A stretch of DNA of 64,000 nucleotides, from contig NC_062229.1 in the NCBI RefSeq assembly GCF_902686445.1, positions 3,001,003 through 3,065,002 of the forward strand. The letters are read 5' to 3'. Each line of letters begins with the position of its first letter. The first letter of the stretch is position 1. The notes beneath the pieces were generated by a model. The model was not told the origin of the DNA, ran no database searches, and saw nothing but the letters and a program-made list of their open reading frames with translations. This document shows positions 1 to 44,015 of the stretch, piece by piece. Source of the stretch: Sciurus carolinensis (taxonomy: Eukaryota > Chordata > Mammalia > Rodentia > Sciuridae). A program made the position numbers and the translations under genes.

Positions 1-2559
1 AGGTATGAGGGAGACCTAGCGCTCACGTCCACCAATTCTAGGGCTTGGGTGCTGGAAATTTAATTTAAAAAGTCATCTGACCCATGAAATGGCTGGAAAG
101 GCCTGGGGTCGGTCAGTGTCCTGAAGACCTTGTGACCGGAGCATCTAGACCATGGCTCCCGCATCCCGTCCCAGCGACCCCACTCAGAACTTGAGGCTCT
201 GTGCGATTATTCCCTTCCCTCTGGCCTCCTCCACAACACTGAAGGCACCTAAGTCCACTGTGGTAGACGTTCTGCCCATGTCCCCAGCTGGCACTGAGAG
301 CCATTAAACAGGGGTCCTGAGTCCCAGGACGCTGTGCTGCTGGACAGGCTGGCACAGACGCCACCGTTAGCTGCCCTGTACCTTCTAGGCCTACAGCTCC
401 ACAGAGGCCAGAACGTGAGCAGAGAGAGCCCCGAGCCCCGCCACCTGTCAGAGCCAGAGAGCACCATCCCTGGGGTTCTGGGGACAGAGCTGCCAGGCAG
501 GACATTTACAAGGGGCCAGGGATTTTTGGTGTTGGCCCTTTGGCAATTTTAGGAGAAGGGCCTGTCTGAATCTCCCACCCTCGGCGCCCAGAGGGAGCTG
601 GAGGGTCAGCCAGGAGTTTGCCTGGGGGGGCCCCTGGGAGCAGGTGGGCGGCAGCAGCGTAAGGACTTATAGCCTTCGGGGCAGAACGGACGGGCAGGTC
701 CGAGGGCTGGCGCTCCCGAGCAGGGCCGCTGGGCATCTGAGCACCCCTTCCAGTGCCAGCTGGAAGAGGGCAGGGGCCCCGGGGCAGCCGCTGGTCCCTG
801 GGGACAGGGCTGGAGCTAGCAGAAGTGAGAGCATGGGACAGGCTCAGAAAGGCACGAGTGAGAAGTAAGATCTGAGCGGTGGATGAGCTTCTGCCCCCAA
901 TGTTCCGGCAGCTTCCCGAACACCCTCCTGTGCACAGGGGGCCTAGGGGCTTGCGGGGCAGCCCGGCAGGGGAGGCGAGCGACTGGAGCCGGGCTCCCCA
1001 GCTCTCTGCTCATCTAGGCTGGGCGTGTTTAGGCTTCATCCTTCGGAGGAGGACAGGGCTGCCCGGGGGTCAGAGGTCCAGCTGAGGGCACACGGCCATG
1101 AGGGGGCAAAGGACTGGAGTCCCGGGCAGCCAGAGTCCTGTGCCCGGAACCTCTGCACAGCTCAGTTCCAGGCCACACTGCCTCCAAGTCCAAGGGGTCT
1201 TCTGACACCCTCCAGCCCCTCAGCTGATATTCACCAGGACCTAGCTTTGGTGGAGGGGCTGGGAGACCTCATTTCCCAGTGTGGCAGCTGTCAGGCTGGC
1301 TGAGTGACATGGGAGAAGCAGATCCCTTCCGCTGCACCTAAGGTCCTCTCGCCAGCTTGGCTTGGGTCTAGTGGCTGGGGGGCTCGAGAAGGCGGGCGAG
1401 GGCAGCAGGGGAAGGAAACCAAGCCCAGCGTCTAAGCTGCGCAGCCAGGGGGCTGGAGGTCGGAAGCCTACAAGGCTTATTAGGGCTGGTCTTTATCTGG
1501 AGTTGGTTTGAGACTCTCAAGGGCTTGCCTTTCTTGGGGAGGGAGCAGGAGAGAGAGGGTCTGCACCTCTGAAGGTCTGTAAATGAGGGGAGAGGGAGAG
1601 AGGGAGGGGCCGAGGGGGGGGGGCGAGAGGGAGGGAGAGAGAGAAGGGAGAGAGGGAGGGAGAGAGAGGGAGACAGCGGGAGAGAGCGAGAGGAGGAAGA
1701 GCCAGGAGACAGAGAAACAGAGTGGGGGAGAGGCTGTGTCCAAAATTCCCCTGGTTTTCTCCAGAATTCCACAGCTCTGATGCTCAGGTAACTCAGAAAG
1801 TGACCGTGCTGTTGTTGGACTAAAGACACCCGTGCTGGGCTCAGAGCCTGAGGGGAGGAGGGGAGCAGCCAACGAGGCCCGGGAGGCGGAGGCGTAGCAG
1901 GCCGGGCAGGCGCCTCTTCCGCACGCAGTCTGCCTGCTGCGTGTTTGCATGAGCAGTTCTGGATCTGTGCCTGGCCGGGACGATAAAGTCATCCCACCAG
2001 CTGCCGTCCCCAGCACCGTGTGCCCAGCCTGAACTGCTGGGGGAGGTACCATTATTCCTCGCTGAGGGTCACCTTTACGTGGACATGCCCAATTCTGATG
2101 CCCCTTCAGCTATACCTCAAATTCTTTTTATTTTATTAATTTATTTTTGGTTATCTGGGGCAGTGGGGTAGCCTCATAGGAGGCAGAATGAGAAAACACC
2201 TGCCTGAGCTCCGTCCAGCATGGCTGCCCTGGAGGGGCTCTGGAGGGGGCTGCTCTCCCCAGGTGCCCTGCCCCAGGCTCTGCCTGCCTGCCATCCATCT
2301 CCACCACCTCCCACCACCCTCACGCCTGGCGGCCACTTTCTGCCCCAGCATCCCAGCTGTGGGACCCTTCTGCCCTCCTGGATGAGGGCTGGGACAGGAA
2401 CACTGGCTTTTAAGTCACAATGCGTTTGGAGAACAACCACAGAACAGCTCAGCCCAAGAAACGGAAACCAAACGGCACAGAAACAAGACAGAACCAAAGA
2501 CAGTCGCTTTGGGGGAGAAGGGGACCAGGTGAAGGGGATGGCAGGGGAAAAAACCAACT
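1..2559. other. PTPRS intron downstream of mini-exon B (left edge of window)
   Basis: No coding exon is visible on either strand. The Ig3 exon (VRRVAPRF-type peptide) was looked for in minus-strand frames and not found, so this intron continues past base 1. It contains a GA-rich simple repeat (1583-1740) and an old AT-rich patch near 2125-2155. The rest is unremarkable GC-rich intron. Confidence 0.7.
1583..1740. repeat. GA-rich simple repeat
   Basis: Almost pure purine on the plus strand (GAGAGGGAGGG-type units), including a run of nine G. On the PTPRS transcript it is a long CU tract, which could bind PTB-like proteins or form triplex DNA. Confidence 0.85.
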
Positions 2560-2750
2560 AGTCGATTTCTCCCCCCAAAATGAAACAAAACTTAAAAAAA
2601 AAAAAAAAAAAGAAAACAAAATGAAACCAAAAAAAAATTAAAAAATTAAAAAATAAACCAAAACAAAACAAAACAAAAAAACGGAACGGAAGACAAGAAA
2701 CACTCCAACAGAGGCTTTGGGAATTCACCAAACCAAACCAACAAGAGTCG

Positions 2751-2785
2751 CATGCAGAGAAGGTCTTACATTCTCCCAGCATGCA
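2751..2785 (-). promoter_or_regulatory. Two RBFOX-type UGCAUG motifs downstream of mini-exon B
   Basis: On the minus strand TGCATG occurs at 2756-2751 and again at 2785-2780, about 379 and 350 nt past the microexon donor. RBFOX proteins bind UGCAUG, and sites downstream of an exon normally promote inclusion in neurons. Two sites within 35 nt, both in the transcribed orientation, are unlikely by chance. Confidence 0.6.
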
Positions 2786-3135
2786 TCAGGCCCAGTTACC
2801 ATGACGACGAGGAGTGCAAAAACTTAGCAACAGCATTACCAACGGATGCAGAGGCGAGCACAATGCAAGCATCGCACGTGTGCGGCCGGCCCGAGCCGGG
2901 CTGGGCGCGGCTGAGGTTTTCGTGTCTTTCTGGGTTTTGCTCTCGCTTGGCGGTTTTTTGTTTGGTTTGCTTTGCGCTAATTGTCCGTATTCCGTGTTTT
3001 GGTTCAGTCTGCTTCTGCCGTGTGCGTGTCTGCGTGTCTGCGTGGCGTCTACGTGTGTTTCGTGTGTGTGCGTGTCATTTTTTCGGAATGTAAAAATGTG
3101 GGTAAAGAAAGTAAAAAAGAAAAAAACACACCAAC

Positions 3136-3147
3136 CTTCTCGAAGCT
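3136..3147 (-). CDS. PTPRS: PTPRS 12-nt microexon (mini-exon B): E-L-R-E between Ig2 and Ig3
   Basis: Twelve bases, AGCTTCGAGAAG, follow acceptor CATCCCTCAG on the minus strand and precede a non-ideal donor GTTGGTGT. In phase 1 they give E-L-R-E and leave a G for V239 of the next exon (VRRVAPRF in other mammals, not in this window). This is mini-exon B of LAR-type receptors. Its insert lengthens the Ig2-Ig3 linker and sets affinity for Slitrk, IL1RAPL1, SALM and related trans-synaptic ligands. The donor is weak, but a U-rich stretch follows at once (transcribed TGTGTTTTTTTCTTTTTTTAC), a TIA1-type enhancer context. The upstream intron is CU-rich. Two UGCAUG motifs lie about 350-380 nt downstream. 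Confidence 0.93.
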
Positions 3148-4477
3148 CTGAGGGATGTAAAGGGGGTTTGATGCGGAACACAATGACATGGGGAGAAGAG
3201 AAAAAATAGGGGAAACACAGAGAGTAAAAAGAGGACTTCCCGAGGCTAACGCTGCAATCGTTTTTTTTTTTTTTTTCTCTTTAAACCAAAAAAAAAATTA
3301 AAATTAAAAAAGAAAAAGAACAGTAATGATCTTCCTTCTTCCCTCCGCTCTGCCTCAACACGCAAGGCCTCCGTCCGCCTCTCTCCACGCTTTCTAAACT
3401 CGGCTCTGGAGTGTCTGAGACCCAGCCAACGATCGGGAGGCTGGACCTGGTCCCTCGGCTGCCCCCGGAGGAAGGAGGCCGGCTGGACCCTGCGCCGGCC
3501 GAGGCCGCTGCGGCCCCTCGGCCTGGCTGAAGCCCCCGCCCGCCTGCCGGCTACGCTGCCTCTCGCCCCGCCAGACTCGCACACCCCATCCCAGGAGTTG
3601 GCAGAGAAGCAACAGGTTAGACGAGGACCCTCACCAGGGTCGCGGAGCGGCGACTCACCGGTGCGCGCGGCTCAGACGTGCCCGCCCGCCCGCACCCTCC
3701 CTCCACCGGCCTCCTCCTGCGGGGGCGCCCAGGGTCCAGGCCCCAGGGCGCTACAGGGCCAGGGCAGCGCTGGCCGCGGGCAGGGGCGGGGTCTGTGGGC
3801 GGGGAGGGCGTGGCCGCCGCCTCTGCGGACGAGCCCAGGGCGGGGCGAGTGCGGGAGGAGGAGGAGGCCGGAACCTGCGGAAGGGCCCCGGGTGGCCGCC
3901 GGGGCAGGGTCGGCAGCCGCGGGGCAGGGCGGCCCCCGCGCCCTCGGGGAGGCACCGGGACGAGGACCCAGGCCTCCGGCGGACCGAGCGGGAGTGGAAA
4001 CCCGGGCCGGCCCAGGGGCCAGCAGGCGCGGTGGTGTGCCTGCCGCGGCCGGTCCTCCCGCTGGCCCGGGCGAGTGCTGTCCTGCGGGTCCTCGGGAGGA
4101 GACCCAGCCGGCTCTGGCCAGCGGGGGCCGCCTGAGACCCCGCCCCACGGGACGAGGGCGCCGGGCTGGGGAAGCGGGAGGGCGGCCACAGTCCGGAGAA
4201 GCGAAGCCAGCACACGACACGGGCACCACACACCACGGAAGCCGGCGGGCGGGGCGGGGCCGCGGCTCCCGGCCCTCCCGCCGCTCGCTGCCCACCGCTG
4301 CCCGGGGGCGCCCGGCACAGGCCCGGGCAGGACCGAGCCGCCCGGTGCCCAGGCCAGGAAGCCGAGGTCCGGAGGCGCCGCCGGTCCCGCGCGCGGAGGC
4401 TCCTGCCGAGGCTGCGGCGGGCGCGCCGGGCGGGGCGGGGCGGGGCCCTGCGGGGACCTGGGCGCCGCGCTCCCTAC

Positions 4478-4588
4478 CTCGCACGTAGAGGTTGGCCGGC
4501 GAGGAGTAGCGCACGCCCGCGCTGTTGGTGGCCACGCACTCGTACTTGCCCTGGTCCGTCTCCTCGCTGCTCTCGATCTGCAGGGCCC
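4478..4588 (-). CDS. PTPRS: PTPRS coding exon: second half of Ig domain 2
   Basis: A 111-nt exon after acceptor CCCCGCAG, ending at a phase-1 donor GTAGGGAG. It encodes G198 then [20 protein letters not shown] and on to SSPANLYVR (residues 198-234 if both site-A microexons are included). GKYEC provides the second Ig2 cysteine. The signature [18 protein letters not shown] and the valine in SAGVRYSS favour PTPRS over PTPRF and PTPRD, which read SAGTRYSA as I recall them. It is very GC-rich with many CpGs, unlike the AT-rich intron around the next microexon. The final codon base G joins either the 12-nt microexon or the Ig3 exon outside the window. Confidence 0.97.
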
Positions 4589-5529
4589 CTGCGGGGAGAA
4601 GGGGGAACCCGGCGTTGAGGGGCCCGGGCACTGCGGAGGCCGTCCCCAGGCCCCGCTGGTCTGCCTCCCACGCCGGCAGAGCTGGAGAGGGCGACCGCGC
4701 CCGAGAGCGAGCCCGAGGTCCGGCTGGACCCCACCCCGGGCCTGGCCCGCACTGCTGGCACATCCCAGGTTGCCTGGCACATCCTCCGCTCCCACTAGAA
4801 GAGGAGCAGGTCACACGGCAGCGGGGTGGCCACGGGTGTGCTGGGGTGGACGTAAGGAAGCACCGAGTGACATCTTGGGGGAGGGGCATTCAACCACAAC
4901 GGCCTCCCAGGAGACCCGGGGTCCCAGGGCCACCAGTGGTGGACTGGATGCAGGGGCTGGGGTGGCTCTGCGGGCCTCAAAGCACAGGAGGCGGACCGCT
5001 GCGCAGAGTCTGAGTGTCTAGGGCCTGCCCACCAGGGTGGGCACAGTGTGTCTGGCGTCAGAGGACGGGACCCAAACCTCCGAGGGACACCGGAAAGGAG
5101 CCAGGGTCGCTCCAACATGTGGAGTCCTCCAAGTCAGCCACTCTGAACACCTGACCTCCAACACCACAGGCCTGGATCCCAGGTTCTGCTGCTCACAAAT
5201 AACTGAAGGGACGCCCGCATCTGGACTCCGGTAATCACAAGGGAATTTTCAACTGTTAGTGACCAGAGTCTGACGGAAGCCTCTTCCACTCACAACTGAA
5301 GCTGAGGCTGACCCAAGCGGCTAGATCACAGGCCCGGCTCAGGTGACTGGCTGACCGTGAAGGAAGGCAGGCGGAGGCGGCCAACTTTAACCACAGCCAC
5401 CCATCCCCGGGATCAGGGCCACAGGCTGCCCACTCAGGGATGAGCCTCCTCACTATGTTTGAAATCCAGGCCCTGAAACCAGACTTCGCTGCCTACGAAC
5501 ATTTTAAATAATCGCTGAAGTCGCGAATT

Positions 5530-5552
5530 AAGTTAATGATACAAGTTAATGA
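5530..5552. promoter_or_regulatory. Direct repeat of a homeodomain/HNF1-like motif
   Basis: AAGTTAATGA occurs twice with a 13-bp period (5530-5539 and 5543-5552) inside an AT-rich patch (5495-5560) of the intron between the 18-nt microexon and the exon at 4588. GTTAATGA resembles homeodomain or HNF1 half-sites. Function is inferred only. Confidence 0.3.
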
Positions 5553-6411
5553 AAACGAGGCCAAGATTTCCCCATGGATGTTGGAGACCTAAGCCTGGAA
5601 TACGTCCCCGTTTCACAAGGAAGCTGAGCGTGTCTGGAGTCACGGGCCTCGGAGAGACACACGTGCTTACCGCGCTTACCAACAAAGCATGAGCAACTCT
5701 CACAAGCAGGCCTGAGATCACAGGCCTGCACGGAAACCTCCACTTTCATAAAAACTACAACCCAGTGCACGCTCACATCACGGGCCTGGCCCACGGGCCT
5801 GCTGGCCTGGTTGAGTCAAGGAAGACCACGACACCCAGCTGGGCCTGACTGCCCGCTTCCATCAGGACCACGGCACCAGGGGTCCAAAGCCAGGTTTGCT
5901 TATGGTTGTCCCACATAAGTGGCATGGACCCCAGACAGGGAGGTCTCTTTGAGGGCAGCAGATAACGGCTCTGCCCCGACAGAACAAGTTCCTATGTTCT
6001 TCCCGACCTCGGTCTGTGGGGTGACGGGCAGGCAGAGACCAGAGAGGGTAGGGAGCATTCTCCCCAGGGCTTCCACCCAGGCCTAGGAGTCACCCTGAGG
6101 CAGCACCAGGCCTTCGGACTGCCCGCCTCTGTTCCCTTGGGCCGCACGCCCAGATCCCAGTGATCCGGAAGGCTGCTCTGCAGCTCAGTTTACGGAGGGA
6201 GAACCGAGGCTGCAGAGGCTGCGGACGGGCATGGGGTCTGCGCGGCCCCAGTGCCCTGGGTGGCATGGGAGGTGCGCCCCTCCCCACAGGAGGTGGTCAC
6301 CCGCCGCCGCACTCGCCCCGGCCACAGACAGACACAGAAACGGATGGACACTGGGCAGAGTGGTGGCAGGGCCCTGGAGCCAGGGGCGGGCGGTGGGAGC
6401 GGGCCTCTTAC

Positions 6412-6429
6412 CTCGGATCGGAGTGCTTT
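6412..6429 (-). CDS. PTPRS: PTPRS 18-nt microexon (site A, part 2): E-S-T-P-I-R
   Basis: Eighteen bases, AAAGCACTCCGATCCGAG, sit between acceptor CCCTTACAG and donor GTAAGAGG. In phase 1 they encode ESTPIR and carry one base of a glycine codon into the exon at 4588. This is the known mini-exon A insert of PTPRS (compare GGTPIR in PTPRD and LAR). The upstream intron holds TCTCTCTGCTTCCC: a CU-rich PTBP-type tract with a UGC about ten bases before the acceptor, the arrangement reported for SRRM4/nSR100-dependent microexons. A plausible branch point is in CCTGACATTC. In LAR-type receptors, site A controls binding to IL1RAPL1/IL1RAP and Slitrk-type partners. Inclusion in this species is inferred, not observed. 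Confidence 0.95.
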
Positions 6430-7904
6430 CTGTAAGGGAAGCAGAGAGACCAGGTGAATGTCAGGAGGCAGGGCGGCCCGGGCGGAGGCCAGCCAGCCAG
6501 GGCCTGAGACCCAGGAGGCCTCGCTGGGGTTGGGGTCTGGCAGGCAGGGCCCCTGCGGGAGGGTGCTGCGGTCTCTGCCCCGCCGCCTCCCTGAGGGGAC
6601 GGGGAGGCTCCTGACCTCCCTCCCCTTTCCTTCTTGGGGGTCCAGCAAGGGGCTGCTTTTAAGTCCAGACTGGGAGGGACAGGAAGCCATGGGGGTCTTG
6701 GGAGTCTTGTTAGAGACAAGGGACAGGAGGGTTAGTGCCCCAGGGCTGGGCTAAGGCAGCGAGGCAAGGTGTCACAGACAAGTTGGGGACAGGGAGGAGC
6801 CCAGGATGGAGGGAGACGTCGCGGCCTGTCCAGCTCCCAGAGGAAAAGAGGAAAGGGCAGGCGGTCCTGGGCTGGGTGACTGGGCCGGGCAGGGGGCGAC
6901 CTGGGGAGCCAGGAAAGGCAGCCCCAGGCCACGGCCCCACAGCTCTGCTCTCCCTGGGGACAGTCCAGCCCTTCTCGTGAGGATGGCTGGCTACTCGATG
7001 GGACAAGAGGACCCCAGGGCCAAGGCACGGCAGTGGTCATCACCAGCAGTCAGGCACAAGCACAGCCCTTTCCGGGCGGCCTGGGCCCGGGCTGCAGGGG
7101 CCCGCGGGGCCCAGGAGGGAGCCCAGGAACCTCAGGTCACCTGGGGCCCAGGTGGTGAGGGCTTCGGACCCTCTGGCCTGAACAGCTGTGCCCCCACCTC
7201 CTCTTGTGAGCATCTCGACCCTTAAGGCCACTCTGCGCCACCCTCGGAGCCCAGGGGATCCGCGAAGGTCCCGCGGCCGGGAGCTGGAAGGCCACCCGGG
7301 CTGCTCTGGTTTCACCGTCTCGCTGCACTTGGATGACGATGTGGAAACCGGGCTGGAGACCAGGCCTCCCAAGATGGCCAAACTGCCCGTGGTCACCACG
7401 CGAGCAGAAGGGTGCGTCCCTTACCACTTAAAGTAGGTCTGCTTCCCGCACTGAGGGGGACAGACGGGACCACTGGAGTCCTGCATGAGCCACTCACATC
7501 TTAGTAAGAACGAGCCCAGACATTCGGGCAAGTGCCAGAGGGTGACAGGCACCAGGACCAGCCCAGCTGGGCAATTTTGAGTCCCTGTCTCCAAACTGCT
7601 GATTCGGTCCTTCTCCATTGGTGCCCAGTGTGCGGCAGGGGTCTCTGGACCGGGGACTCCCCTGCCTGAGGGGCTTGGTGCCCGCTGAGGCCCGCGGGCG
7701 CCTGGCCAGCGAATCCTTTTCCTCTTTTCCTTCTGGGCTCGTCTCTGCGGGTCCTGGCGCCCAGCTGGGAGGGGTGGCCGAGGGGTCGGGTTAGTAAACA
7801 TGCCACGCAGTGGGTCACAGTTACTGTGGCGGTGGCTGTTAGTCTGGGAGGGCGGGAGGGACGCAGAAGGACGTTAGTCGTGGAGTTGGGAGAGGCAGAC
7901 TTAC

Positions 7905-7913
7905 CAAAGGTTT
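7905..7913 (-). CDS. PTPRS: PTPRS 9-nt microexon (site A, part 1): E-T-F
   Basis: Nine bases, AAACCTTTG, lie between the acceptor ACGTCCAG and the strong donor GTAAGTCT on the minus strand. Entered from the phase-1 donor of the exon at 8678, they give codons G/AA ACC TTT and leave one base G, adding E-T-F without shifting frame. Human PTPRS, as I recall it, reads RS-ETF-ESTPIR-GALQ at this point. The paralog PTPRD has the same 9+18 nt layout (ESI + GGTPIR). The upstream intron has an unbroken pyrimidine run (TTCCTCTTCTCTTTTCTTG), the kind of tract PTBP1 uses to repress neural microexons. The exon lies in the Ig2 loop that tunes choice of synaptic partner. It is far below the size that gene callers handle. 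Confidence 0.92.
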
Positions 7914-8677
7914 CTGGACGTTTACGGAGGGACAAGAAAAGAGAAGAGGAACGTTAACGGGCTGCTGGGCAGGCAGCAGGGCGGGTACGGATGATGGCCC
8001 GTGGCCGAACGTTCAGGGGCACGCCAGGCGCGTGGGCGCCTCTCACAGGGAACTGAGGTCGGGAGGGCCCGACCCGGAAAGGCCAGCCTCGGCACAGACG
8101 CGGCAGCACCGCGTCCCCAGGGTGACTCAGGGGCCGGCGCACGTGTCCCCAAGCACGGCACCAGGAGCGCAGGTGGGGCTGCGCCAGGCCACGGCCAGGT
8201 GCCCCGGGGAGGCCAGTGGGAGAGGCCTGCTGGGGAGGGAGGAGGTCGGGCCGGCGCCGGGTGGACGCGGACACCACAGAAGGGTGACGGACAGACACAC
8301 ACAGCCGACGCCACCGCACGGGCACCGAGGGGAGGCTCCGCCGACCCTGCCGCCGCGGTGCCGAGACCACCCGTCCTCCAGCTCCCGCGCCCTCCCCAGC
8401 CCAGCCCTGGAGACGCCCGCGCCGCGCCTCTGCCATGGCAGATCCTCTGCCACCTGCCACGCTGACCTCCAGCCCGTCACGTGTCCTGCGCGGCCGGTCC
8501 CGAGGCTCGCCATCCCCGGCCTGTCTGCCCAGGGCTGGGCGCCGCGTCCCCTCTGGTCCCCGTCACCCAGGATGCTCCGCCTCAGCGCCGCCCTCTTGCC
8601 CACCGGGGCGAGCTGTCCCCACACGAGGGCCTGGTGCCTCTGGTGCCTCCGCCGCCCCGTCCGCAGCCCGCGCTCAC

Positions 8678-8866
8678 CTGACCGCAGCTGCTTGATGCGC
8701 CCGTTGCTGGCGCTGGGGTCCACGGGCAGGAAGTCCTTGAACCAGGCGATCTCGGGGTCGGGGTTGCCGCTGGCGGCACAGAGCATGGTGGCCGTGCGCG
8801 TCCGCTCCACCACCTTCAGCTGGGGGCCCATGTCGATGCTGGGGAAGCCGGGGGGCAGCTGGTCCT
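8678..8866 (-). CDS. PTPRS: PTPRS coding exon 4: first half of Ig domain 2
   Basis: A 189-nt exon. The acceptor is ...CCTCAG before 8866 and the donor is GTGAGCGC after 8678. It completes E126 and encodes residues 127-188, starting [20 protein letters not shown] and ending GRIKQLRS, then one base of the next codon. The first Ig2 cysteine is in TMLCAASG and the Ig tryptophan is in IAWFKDF. The exon ends in phase 1, directly before the alternatively spliced site A of LAR-type receptors. It can therefore join in frame to the 9-nt microexon, the 18-nt microexon or the exon at 4588. Confidence 0.97.
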
Positions 8867-9807
8867 CTGAGGATGGAGACGGGCAGTGAGGGGCGAGGCC
8901 GGGGGGCCACGGGCGGCCACTGTCCTCGGCCGGGGTGGCATGGCTCCCGGGCCCAGCGAGACCACCTGCCCCGGCCTGTGCAGCAGCCAGGCACGACCAC
9001 CCGGCCTGGGCGTCCACACGCCCGGCCGCAAGCCCAGGCTCGGCTGCTCGCAGCTGAAGGCTGCTGCCCTCCTCCTGCCCCGTGCAGGACGGCCAGGTGC
9101 CCCGCACTGCCCGAAGCCATCGAGGGCCCCAGGCCACCTGCTCGGCCACCTGCTCGGCCGCCTGCGCGGTGTGGCCCCTCACAGCAGCCAGGGCCTGGCC
9201 ATGCACTGCCATTCCCCAGCACACCACACCTCAGGGCCTCCGTCCCCCTGGCTGGACAGCAGCACGCGGGGAGGGGGACGAGGAAGGAAATGAACTTGGG
9301 AAACGAACGGTTCCCGCTCTGGTCAGGGCGGGGCCGCGGTCGGGGCCGCCAGCTGACGTGGGTGGCCTCACCCGGGCTCTGCGGACCCCGAGGCGCAGCG
9401 GCCTCCTTCAGCTGGACCTGATGGGGGTGCGGCTGGGGCTCCCAGGCAGCCCGCCCAGGCTCCTGGCCCATGCCTCCCGGGAGACTCCTCAGCGCCCAGC
9501 AGAACCGCTGGCCCTGGACCCTGGACCTCTGGAGGGCTGGGTGGGGACGGCCCTAGAGACGCCTTAGGGTACAGTGGTCACTCCAGCCTGGGCCCTTCCC
9601 TGCAGGGGCCTCATGTGAAGGGGGGACGGGGACAGGGCCGGCAGAGGGACGGCGGCCCCGGCAGGCCTGGGGAGGAGTGGGCCCTGCCTGGCCTCGACCT
9701 TGGGCTTCTCTGGGTGTTCGTGGCGTCAGGAAGCCAAGCAGACTGTCCCCAGAGGACAAGAGACTAAAGTGACAACCAGGTGCTGATGGACTGGGCCGCA
9801 GGCCTGC

Positions 9808-15932: not shown

Positions 15933-16107
15933 CTTCCGCAGCGCAGCCGCCGACCAGCAGGACCAGCAGGAGGCCCGTGGGCGCCACTGCGGACGGGCTG
16001 GGACCCCAGGCAGGTGCCATGCTGGGCAGCGACCTCCGCCCTCCACCGGGCGGGATGGCCTGGGCCCTCAGACGGCGGCCTCCAGCGGAGCGTCAGGCGG
16101 GCAGCGT
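15933..16107 (-). CDS. PTPRS: PTPRS first coding exon: 5'UTR end, start codon and signal peptide (CDS 15933-16020)
   Basis: Read on the minus strand, a pyrimidine tract and acceptor (CTGTCTCTGCAG) end at 16108 and the exon begins at 16107. It has 87 nt of 5'UTR, then ATG at 16020, 29 codons, and a phase-1 donor (GAAG then GTAAGAGG) after 15933. The start is well supported: context AGCATGG is a strong Kozak match, and an in-frame TGA lies 24 codons upstream. The peptide begins MAPAWGPSPS, has a leucine/valine-rich core (GLLLVLLVGG) and ends GCAAE, which is a classic signal peptide with cleavage expected after CAA. This matches the PTPRS N-terminus, as I recall it, apart from a few N-terminal substitutions. 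It directs the receptor to the secretory pathway and the neuronal surface. The following intron is about 2.95 kb. Confidence 0.95.
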
Positions 16108-43340: not shown

Positions 43341-43379
43341 CTTTCCTTCATAATAAAACACGCAAGACATCAGGAAGAG

Positions 43380-44015
43380 AACTTCCCCTGATAAAGGGCG
43401 TCTTCGGCCAGTGTCATACTTAGGAGTGAAAGACGAATGTCCCCCCTGAGATCGGGAGATTGTACTGGATGGAGGTTATAACCAGGAAACCGGCGAGAAA
43501 ACGAACCAAACGGCACCTTCAATGGAAAGCAAGAAGCCCGCCTATCTCTGCTTGTGCCTGACATCATCTTATACATAGAAAATCCCCAGGGAGCCTCTAA
43601 AAACATTGAAGTGGTAAATGAATTCAGAAAGGCTGCAGGGTAGGAGATCGATGCACAAAAATCCACTGTATTTCCTACAGTGGCAACAAACAAGCAAAAT
43701 GAAATTAAGAAACCAATTCCATTTGCAATTGATCAAAAAGAATAAAATATTTAGGAATTCACTTACCAAAAAAGTGCAAAACCTGTGCTAGAAAACAACA
43801 GAACACTGTGGACAGACACTAATGAAAATCCGAGAAAACGGAAAGGCATCCCATGTTCATGGACTAGAAAGGTAATATCGTTAAGATGGCAGGGCCTTCC
43901 AAATTTACCTACAGGATCAATGCAACCCCTATCAAAGTCCCCATTAGCTTCTGTGCAGAACTTGACAAGTGGATCCTAAAATGCAAATTTGTCACAATCG
44001 AGAATGGCCCATTTT
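43380..44015 (+). mobile_element. L1 ORF2 fossil (3' part), degenerate
   Basis: AT-rich block with the familiar L1 ORF2 order: ATAAAGGGCGTC, GTTATAACCAGGAAACC, CTACAGTGGCAACAAACAAG, TTGCAATTGATCAAAAAGAA, ATTCACTTACCAAAAAAGTG, TTCATGGACTAGAAAGGTAA, CAATGCAACCCCTATCAAAG. Many stops in every frame, so it is dead. The flanking DNA has much higher GC. Confidence 0.85.

Follow-up and report, generated by a model that had tools for sequence, protein, structure and literature searches.

The analyzed window, a stretch of 64 kilobases (G000:C26:3001003-3065002) from a genome that, judging by its size and the gene found here, is likely a mammal's, holds on its minus strand the 5′ part of PTPRS, and within it three microexons of 9, 18 and 12 nucleotides (nt) together with the intronic signals that may control them. 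All positions below are counted within the window, and the features lie on its minus strand unless another strand or contig is named. The exons of the gene were matched by tblastn with what we take to be the human PTPRS sequence, and its identity is backed by solved PTPRS chains, which headed the table of solved-structure matches. The start codon lies at 16020, and the exons of the first immunoglobulin (Ig) domain are found near 12981-12835 and 12574-12434. The first part of the second domain, Ig2, is encoded by the exon at 8678..8866 (EDQLPPGF...KQLRS; 95% identity over 63 amino acids), which is the upstream neighbor of the microexons and has the donor CAG/GTGAGC; our scripts began it at 8867, the acceptor G, which stood in for the first base of the codon. 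The second part of Ig2 is encoded at 4478..4588 (GALQIESS...NLYVR; 100% identity over 37 amino acids), across an intron of 4,089 nt, and the Ig3 exon starts beyond the window at G000:C26:2996212.

Two of the microexons lie within the Ig2 intron at a distance of 1,475 nt from each other, namely the 9-nt exon meA3 (7905..7913; AAACCTTTG), encoding E-T-F, and the 18-nt exon meA6 (6412..6429; AAAGCACTCCGATCCGAG), encoding ESTPIR, each preceded by AG and followed by GT. The 12-nt exon meB (3136..3147; AGCTTCGAGAAG) encodes ELRE, likewise follows an AG and has the donor GTTGGT. All three are in phase 1, as the upstream exon ends in ...TCA G and every insert starts by completing that codon. When the exons were joined in silico up to the Ig3 exon, stop codons were absent from 8 out of 8 combinations, and the joined reading was QLRS-[ETF]-[ESTPIR]-GALQ and NLYVR-[ELRE]-VRRV. 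Sizes, phase and sites, after the QLRS codon and after NLYVR, are those of meA and meB in the LAR-RPTP family, and the insert peptides are those of human PTPRS. For the latter, a 2025 paper citing Pulido et al. 1995 gives mini-exons ETFESTPIR after S189 and ELRE after R226 (PMC12643511), i.e., the same peptides at the same sites. Human mini-exon A is described as one unit of nine amino acids, whereas here it is divided between two exons that together give the identical insert. Read from the sequence, the exons are the PTPRS cassettes meA3, meA6 and meB, which insert E-T-F, ESTPIR and ELRE and leave the frame intact. With human mini-exons A and B published, the exons themselves are already known, and their identification is correct but ordinary.

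The initial annotation had proposed three PTPRS microexons of these sizes on the minus strand, in phase 1 and with AG and GT ends, joined through 8678, 7913/7905, 6429/6412, 4588/4478 and 3147. The exon structure and the junction coordinates were confirmed from the sequence, while the identity of gene and exons is backed by the sequence and by the human peptides in print. Its further expectation of up to eight isoforms agrees with the eight open combinations and with mouse Ptprd, in which three such exons are known to give eight variants (PMC13080001).

Both strands of the window were scanned for cassettes that are open in phase 1, 6-27 nt long, and flanked by YAG, at least 14 pyrimidines in 20 positions and a GTRAG donor. 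Ten candidates were obtained (7 on the minus and 3 on the plus strand, two of them overlapping), and the two located inside the Ig2 intron are exactly the 9-nt and the 18-nt exon. The 12-nt exon was missed because its donor reads GTTGG instead of the required GTRAG. With regards to the 9-base donor consensus, it matches at 7 of 9 positions, the same as the other two exons.

Downstream of the 9-nt exon, three ACTAAC motifs, predicted to be QKI sites, occupy 7790..7878, with first bases at 7878, 7843 and 7795 (+27, +62 and +110). The triple spans 89 nt, and the gaps of 29 and 42 nt between the sites fit the pattern used for the genome search. The cluster was spotted by eye ahead of any counting, and ACTAAY was one of nine motifs scanned on both sides of the three exons, which amounts to 54 looks; the other eight (TGC, GCATG, YGCY, YCAY, TCTT/CTCT, TAAY, TGTGT and TTTTT) gave no signal as clear around these exons. 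Within the window, ACTAAY occurs nine times on the minus strand, three of them after the 9-nt exon, and five times on the plus strand, where two never lie within 120 nt. None of 2000 local dinucleotide shuffles of the first 200 nt of the intron reached three ACTAAY in the first 120 nt, and no 120-nt stretch with three ACTAAY arose in 100 shuffles of the whole minus strand. Across both strands of the 2.8-gigabase genome, a triple at about this spacing was matched 328 times (167 + 161), many of the triples among the matches listed being tandem repeats. By our own arithmetic, this genome rate multiplied by approximately 120 positions and 54 looks comes to roughly 4 in 10,000.

ACUAAC is described as the QKI site, and cassette exons are included more often when QKI binds downstream of them (PMC6429586). 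By motif presence alone, the 9-nt exon has what QKI-promoted exons have, an ACUAAC in the nearby downstream intron. The same arrangement is found at Nin exon 18, where the downstream ACUAAC is described as an inclusion site, and the gene table of splicing changes in the Qk conditional-knockout (Qk-cKO) mouse cortex at embryonic day 14.5 (E14.5) in that paper contains both Ptprs and Ptprf (PMC6429586). Nin exon 18, however, is 2.1 kilobases long, compared with 9 nt for the exon described here. On these grounds, meA3 is a candidate for the QKI-dependent exon. In the accessible parts of the open-access literature, our search found no paper tying QKI to a PTPRS microexon, and the one paper with QKI, microexon and PTPRS names them in unrelated places. 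As a separate observation, each ACTAAC between 7765 and 7878 is followed by a YAG (ends at +61, +81 and +140), and the start of this intron resembles a row of decoy 3′ splice sites.

The 18-nt exon is preceded at 6441..6449 (-20 to -12) by TCTCTCTGC, a predicted SRSF11/SRRM4 enhancer whose motif class, UCUCU/UGC, is described as recruiting Srsf11 and Srrm4 to microexons (PMC13080001). Of the three microexons, this one alone has UCUCU and UGC together close before its 3′ splice site. The 9-nt and 12-nt exons have UCUCU without an adjacent UGC, and the composite was not found in the 120 nt before any of the other four exons examined. Counted with up to 6 nt between its halves, the composite has 25 copies on one strand of the window and 17 on the other, so that its presence alone says little and its position is what counts.

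Around the 12-nt exon, a block at 3049..3247 is common to PTPRS and PTPRD of the same genome, with 76% identity in an alignment of 200 columns (E 1.7e-31). The meB exon of PTPRD lies at G000:C14:61639631-61639642, reads AGCTGCGAGAAG and is followed by GTTGGTGTGTTTTTT, the same 15 bases as after PTPRS meB; the GTTGGT donor is likewise common to both genes. The comparison of the 200 nt upstream of meB scored 60.3, whereas the best of 500 shuffles reached 20.4, and that of the 100 nt downstream scored 24.8, against a shuffle maximum of 15.5. These shuffles dealt out two-base blocks and are cruder than the dinucleotide shuffles applied to ACTAAC. PTPRS and PTPRD are paralogues that parted early in vertebrates, and an identity of 76% outside the coding sequence therefore speaks for regulation. 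The block in PTPRS contains TCTCT at -76 and -54 of meB, and the former (3219..3223), a likely counterpart of the meB enhancer, aligns with the TCTCT of PTPRD at -75/-73. Inclusion of meB in mouse Ptprd depends in part on the UCUCU closest to it (PMC13080001), and the PTPRS copy at -76 is presumably the same element as the one tested there. PTPRS has in this respect a presumed proximal enhancer block with UCUCU, as belongs to meB control of the Ptprd type.

The meB exon of Ptprd also has an activity-dependent silencer at about -1204 to -785 (PMC13080001). At this distance, PTPRS and PTPRD of this one species showed no similarity (score 9.0; mean 8.7 and maximum 14.1 in 200 shuffles), and the GC content of the interval was 80% in PTPRS versus 35% in PTPRD. 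A blastn comparison of window positions 2001-9000 with the readable PTPRD stretch returned the meB block, the Ig2 exon and otherwise weak matches only, and a distal silencer of the Ptprd type was not found in PTPRS. The comparisons with PTPRD and PTPRF cover the readable parts of these loci, and the meA region of PTPRD lies outside them. In PTPRF, the readable part of the 8,644-nt Ig2 intron yielded neither a cassette in the scan, which depends on a GTRAG donor, nor a TPIR pattern. Overall, PTPRS has the same three-exon layout as Ptprd (meA3, meA6 and meB) and has the meB exon, its GTTGGT donor and the proximal block in common with PTPRD of this genome, but it differs from Ptprd in the missing similarity at the silencer distance and in a CA-rich stretch after meB.

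This CA-rich, hnRNP L-like stretch of PTPRS occupies 3018-3076, on the downstream side of meB at roughly +60 to +118, and PTPRD has none at the corresponding place. Furthermore, the region at 3016-3267 stands out in composition, as the 120 nt on each side of meB have a GC content of 44-45%, compared with 78-86% beside the neighboring Ig2 exon. Such a compositional island might help to locate exons of this kind.

In the mouse brain, Ptprs variants with meB are high in the thalamus and moderate elsewhere, meA is barely expressed in the regions examined, and the meA peptide of PTPsigma went undetected by mass spectrometry (PMC10883964). The same work gives the meB peptides of mouse PTPsigma as VAQLR or EAR, versus ELR for PTPdelta; the exon found here encodes ELRE. 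Among the solved structures (60 of 76 matches listed), the matched stretches of six PTPRS or CRYPalpha1 chains are 9 residues shorter than the query; the meA gap was seen directly in the three of these chains that were printed and follows from the lengths in the other three. Two printed PTPRD chains carry ESIGGTPIR and ELRE. Among the matches listed, the meA insert appears to be absent from all six PTPRS or CRYPalpha1 chains.

We give an even chance to the prediction that each microexon is switched by its own intronic signal, i.e., by QKI for meA3, by SRRM4/SRSF11 for meA6 and by the enhancer shared with PTPRD for meB. The 9-nt exon would be spliced in wherever QKI is present, by way of the three downstream ACUAAC, in line with published cases in which downstream QKI raises inclusion. 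The 18-nt exon would be spliced in where SRRM4 and SRSF11 act on UCUCUCUGC, next to its 3′ splice site. The 12-nt exon would follow the enhancer block common with PTPRD, in which the role of UCUCU is shown for mouse Ptprd and presumed here, and would do so without the activity-dependent silencer of PTPRD, for which no similarity was found. By the layout of the family, the first two inserts would enter a loop of Ig2 and the third the joint between Ig2 and Ig3, and the inserts may then alter which postsynaptic partners can dock, as is established for the family. A review gives meA3, meA6 and meB with their effect on ligand binding and states that meA and meB control it (PMC8711739), which upholds the assertion of the initial annotation that such inserts govern partner choice.

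Several observations weigh against separate switches of this kind. The reversed control pattern was matched 1222 times in the genome (659 + 563), compared with 328 matches of the triple, and the arrangement is thus not generally enriched. Upstream of the 9-nt exon, a UCUCU lies at -31 and five TCTT/CTCT matches lie at -35 to -24. PTBP1 could repress the exon through this UCUU-rich tract in QKI-rich cells. The gene table of the Qk-cKO study lists Ptprs without naming the exon (PMC6429586). A downstream UACUAAY was tied to inclusion in muscle, whereas in brain the pattern was reversed, and QKI can also act as a repressor where ACUAA serves as the branch site (PMC13004596). Lastly, in mouse neurons of cortex, hippocampus or striatum with projections to the medial prefrontal cortex, the predominant Ptprs form is meA1+meA2- (PMC10883964). 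In this neuronal form the 9-nt exon is present and the 18-nt exon absent, which is the opposite of a split into a QKI-only and an SRRM4-only exon.

This neuronal pattern would suit a different explanation, in which the three microexons form one neuronal set of the SRRM4 type, as presupposed by the brain-liver comparison of the initial annotation, and the ACTAAC cluster is incidental. UCUCU does occur within 80 nt upstream of all three microexons, and a developmental network names Ptprs as one of its synaptic genes that contain microexons (PMC7821500). We nevertheless regard a common neuronal set as less likely, given that a triple of ACTAAC is very improbable at the 9-nt exon and that meA of mouse Ptprs is so scarce in the brain regions examined (PMC10883964). 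The ACTAAC sites could also act in tandem as branch points for decoy 3′ splice sites in competition with the 9-nt exon, in which case the occupancy by QKI or SF1 would set the outcome, either skipping or a pseudo-exon. The distances from the branch A to a following YAG are 30, 15 and 26 nt for the three motifs, the spacers at the first and third are pyrimidine-rich, and SF1 and QKI are described as competing at ACUAA branch sites (PMC13004596). A pseudo-exon beginning from +62, however, would in phase 1 start with a stop codon, as read from the sequence, and we rate competition by decoys as rather improbable. That the microexon-like sequences are products of chance and unspliced in this species is hardly credible in view of the exact expected peptides in the exact phase, the published human counterparts and the conserved intron flanks at meB.

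Within the prediction of separate signals, a bolder version is conceivable, and we hold it to be unlikely. Here, meA would be a switch with two keys, QKI for the 9-nt half and SRRM4 for the 18-nt half, and the full insert of nine residues would be confined to cells in transition from progenitor to neuron; meB would keep the developmental enhancer of PTPRD without its activity-dependent silencer. If the reading of the flanks is true, it would help to explain the scarcity of PTPRS meA in bulk brain, name regulators for meA, which the available passages of PMC10883964 and PMC13080001 leave open, and separate the shared from the unshared parts of PTPRD meB control between the paralogues.

Beyond the microexons, Muise et al. 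2007 reported, according to a review, that PTPRS exon 9 is skipped in ulcerative colitis (PMC5602094). An Rfam scan gave 0 matches at gathering thresholds, and the minus strand has at 43373-43975 two open frames, one of 70 and one of 120 codons, neither of which matched a Pfam family above the cut-off.

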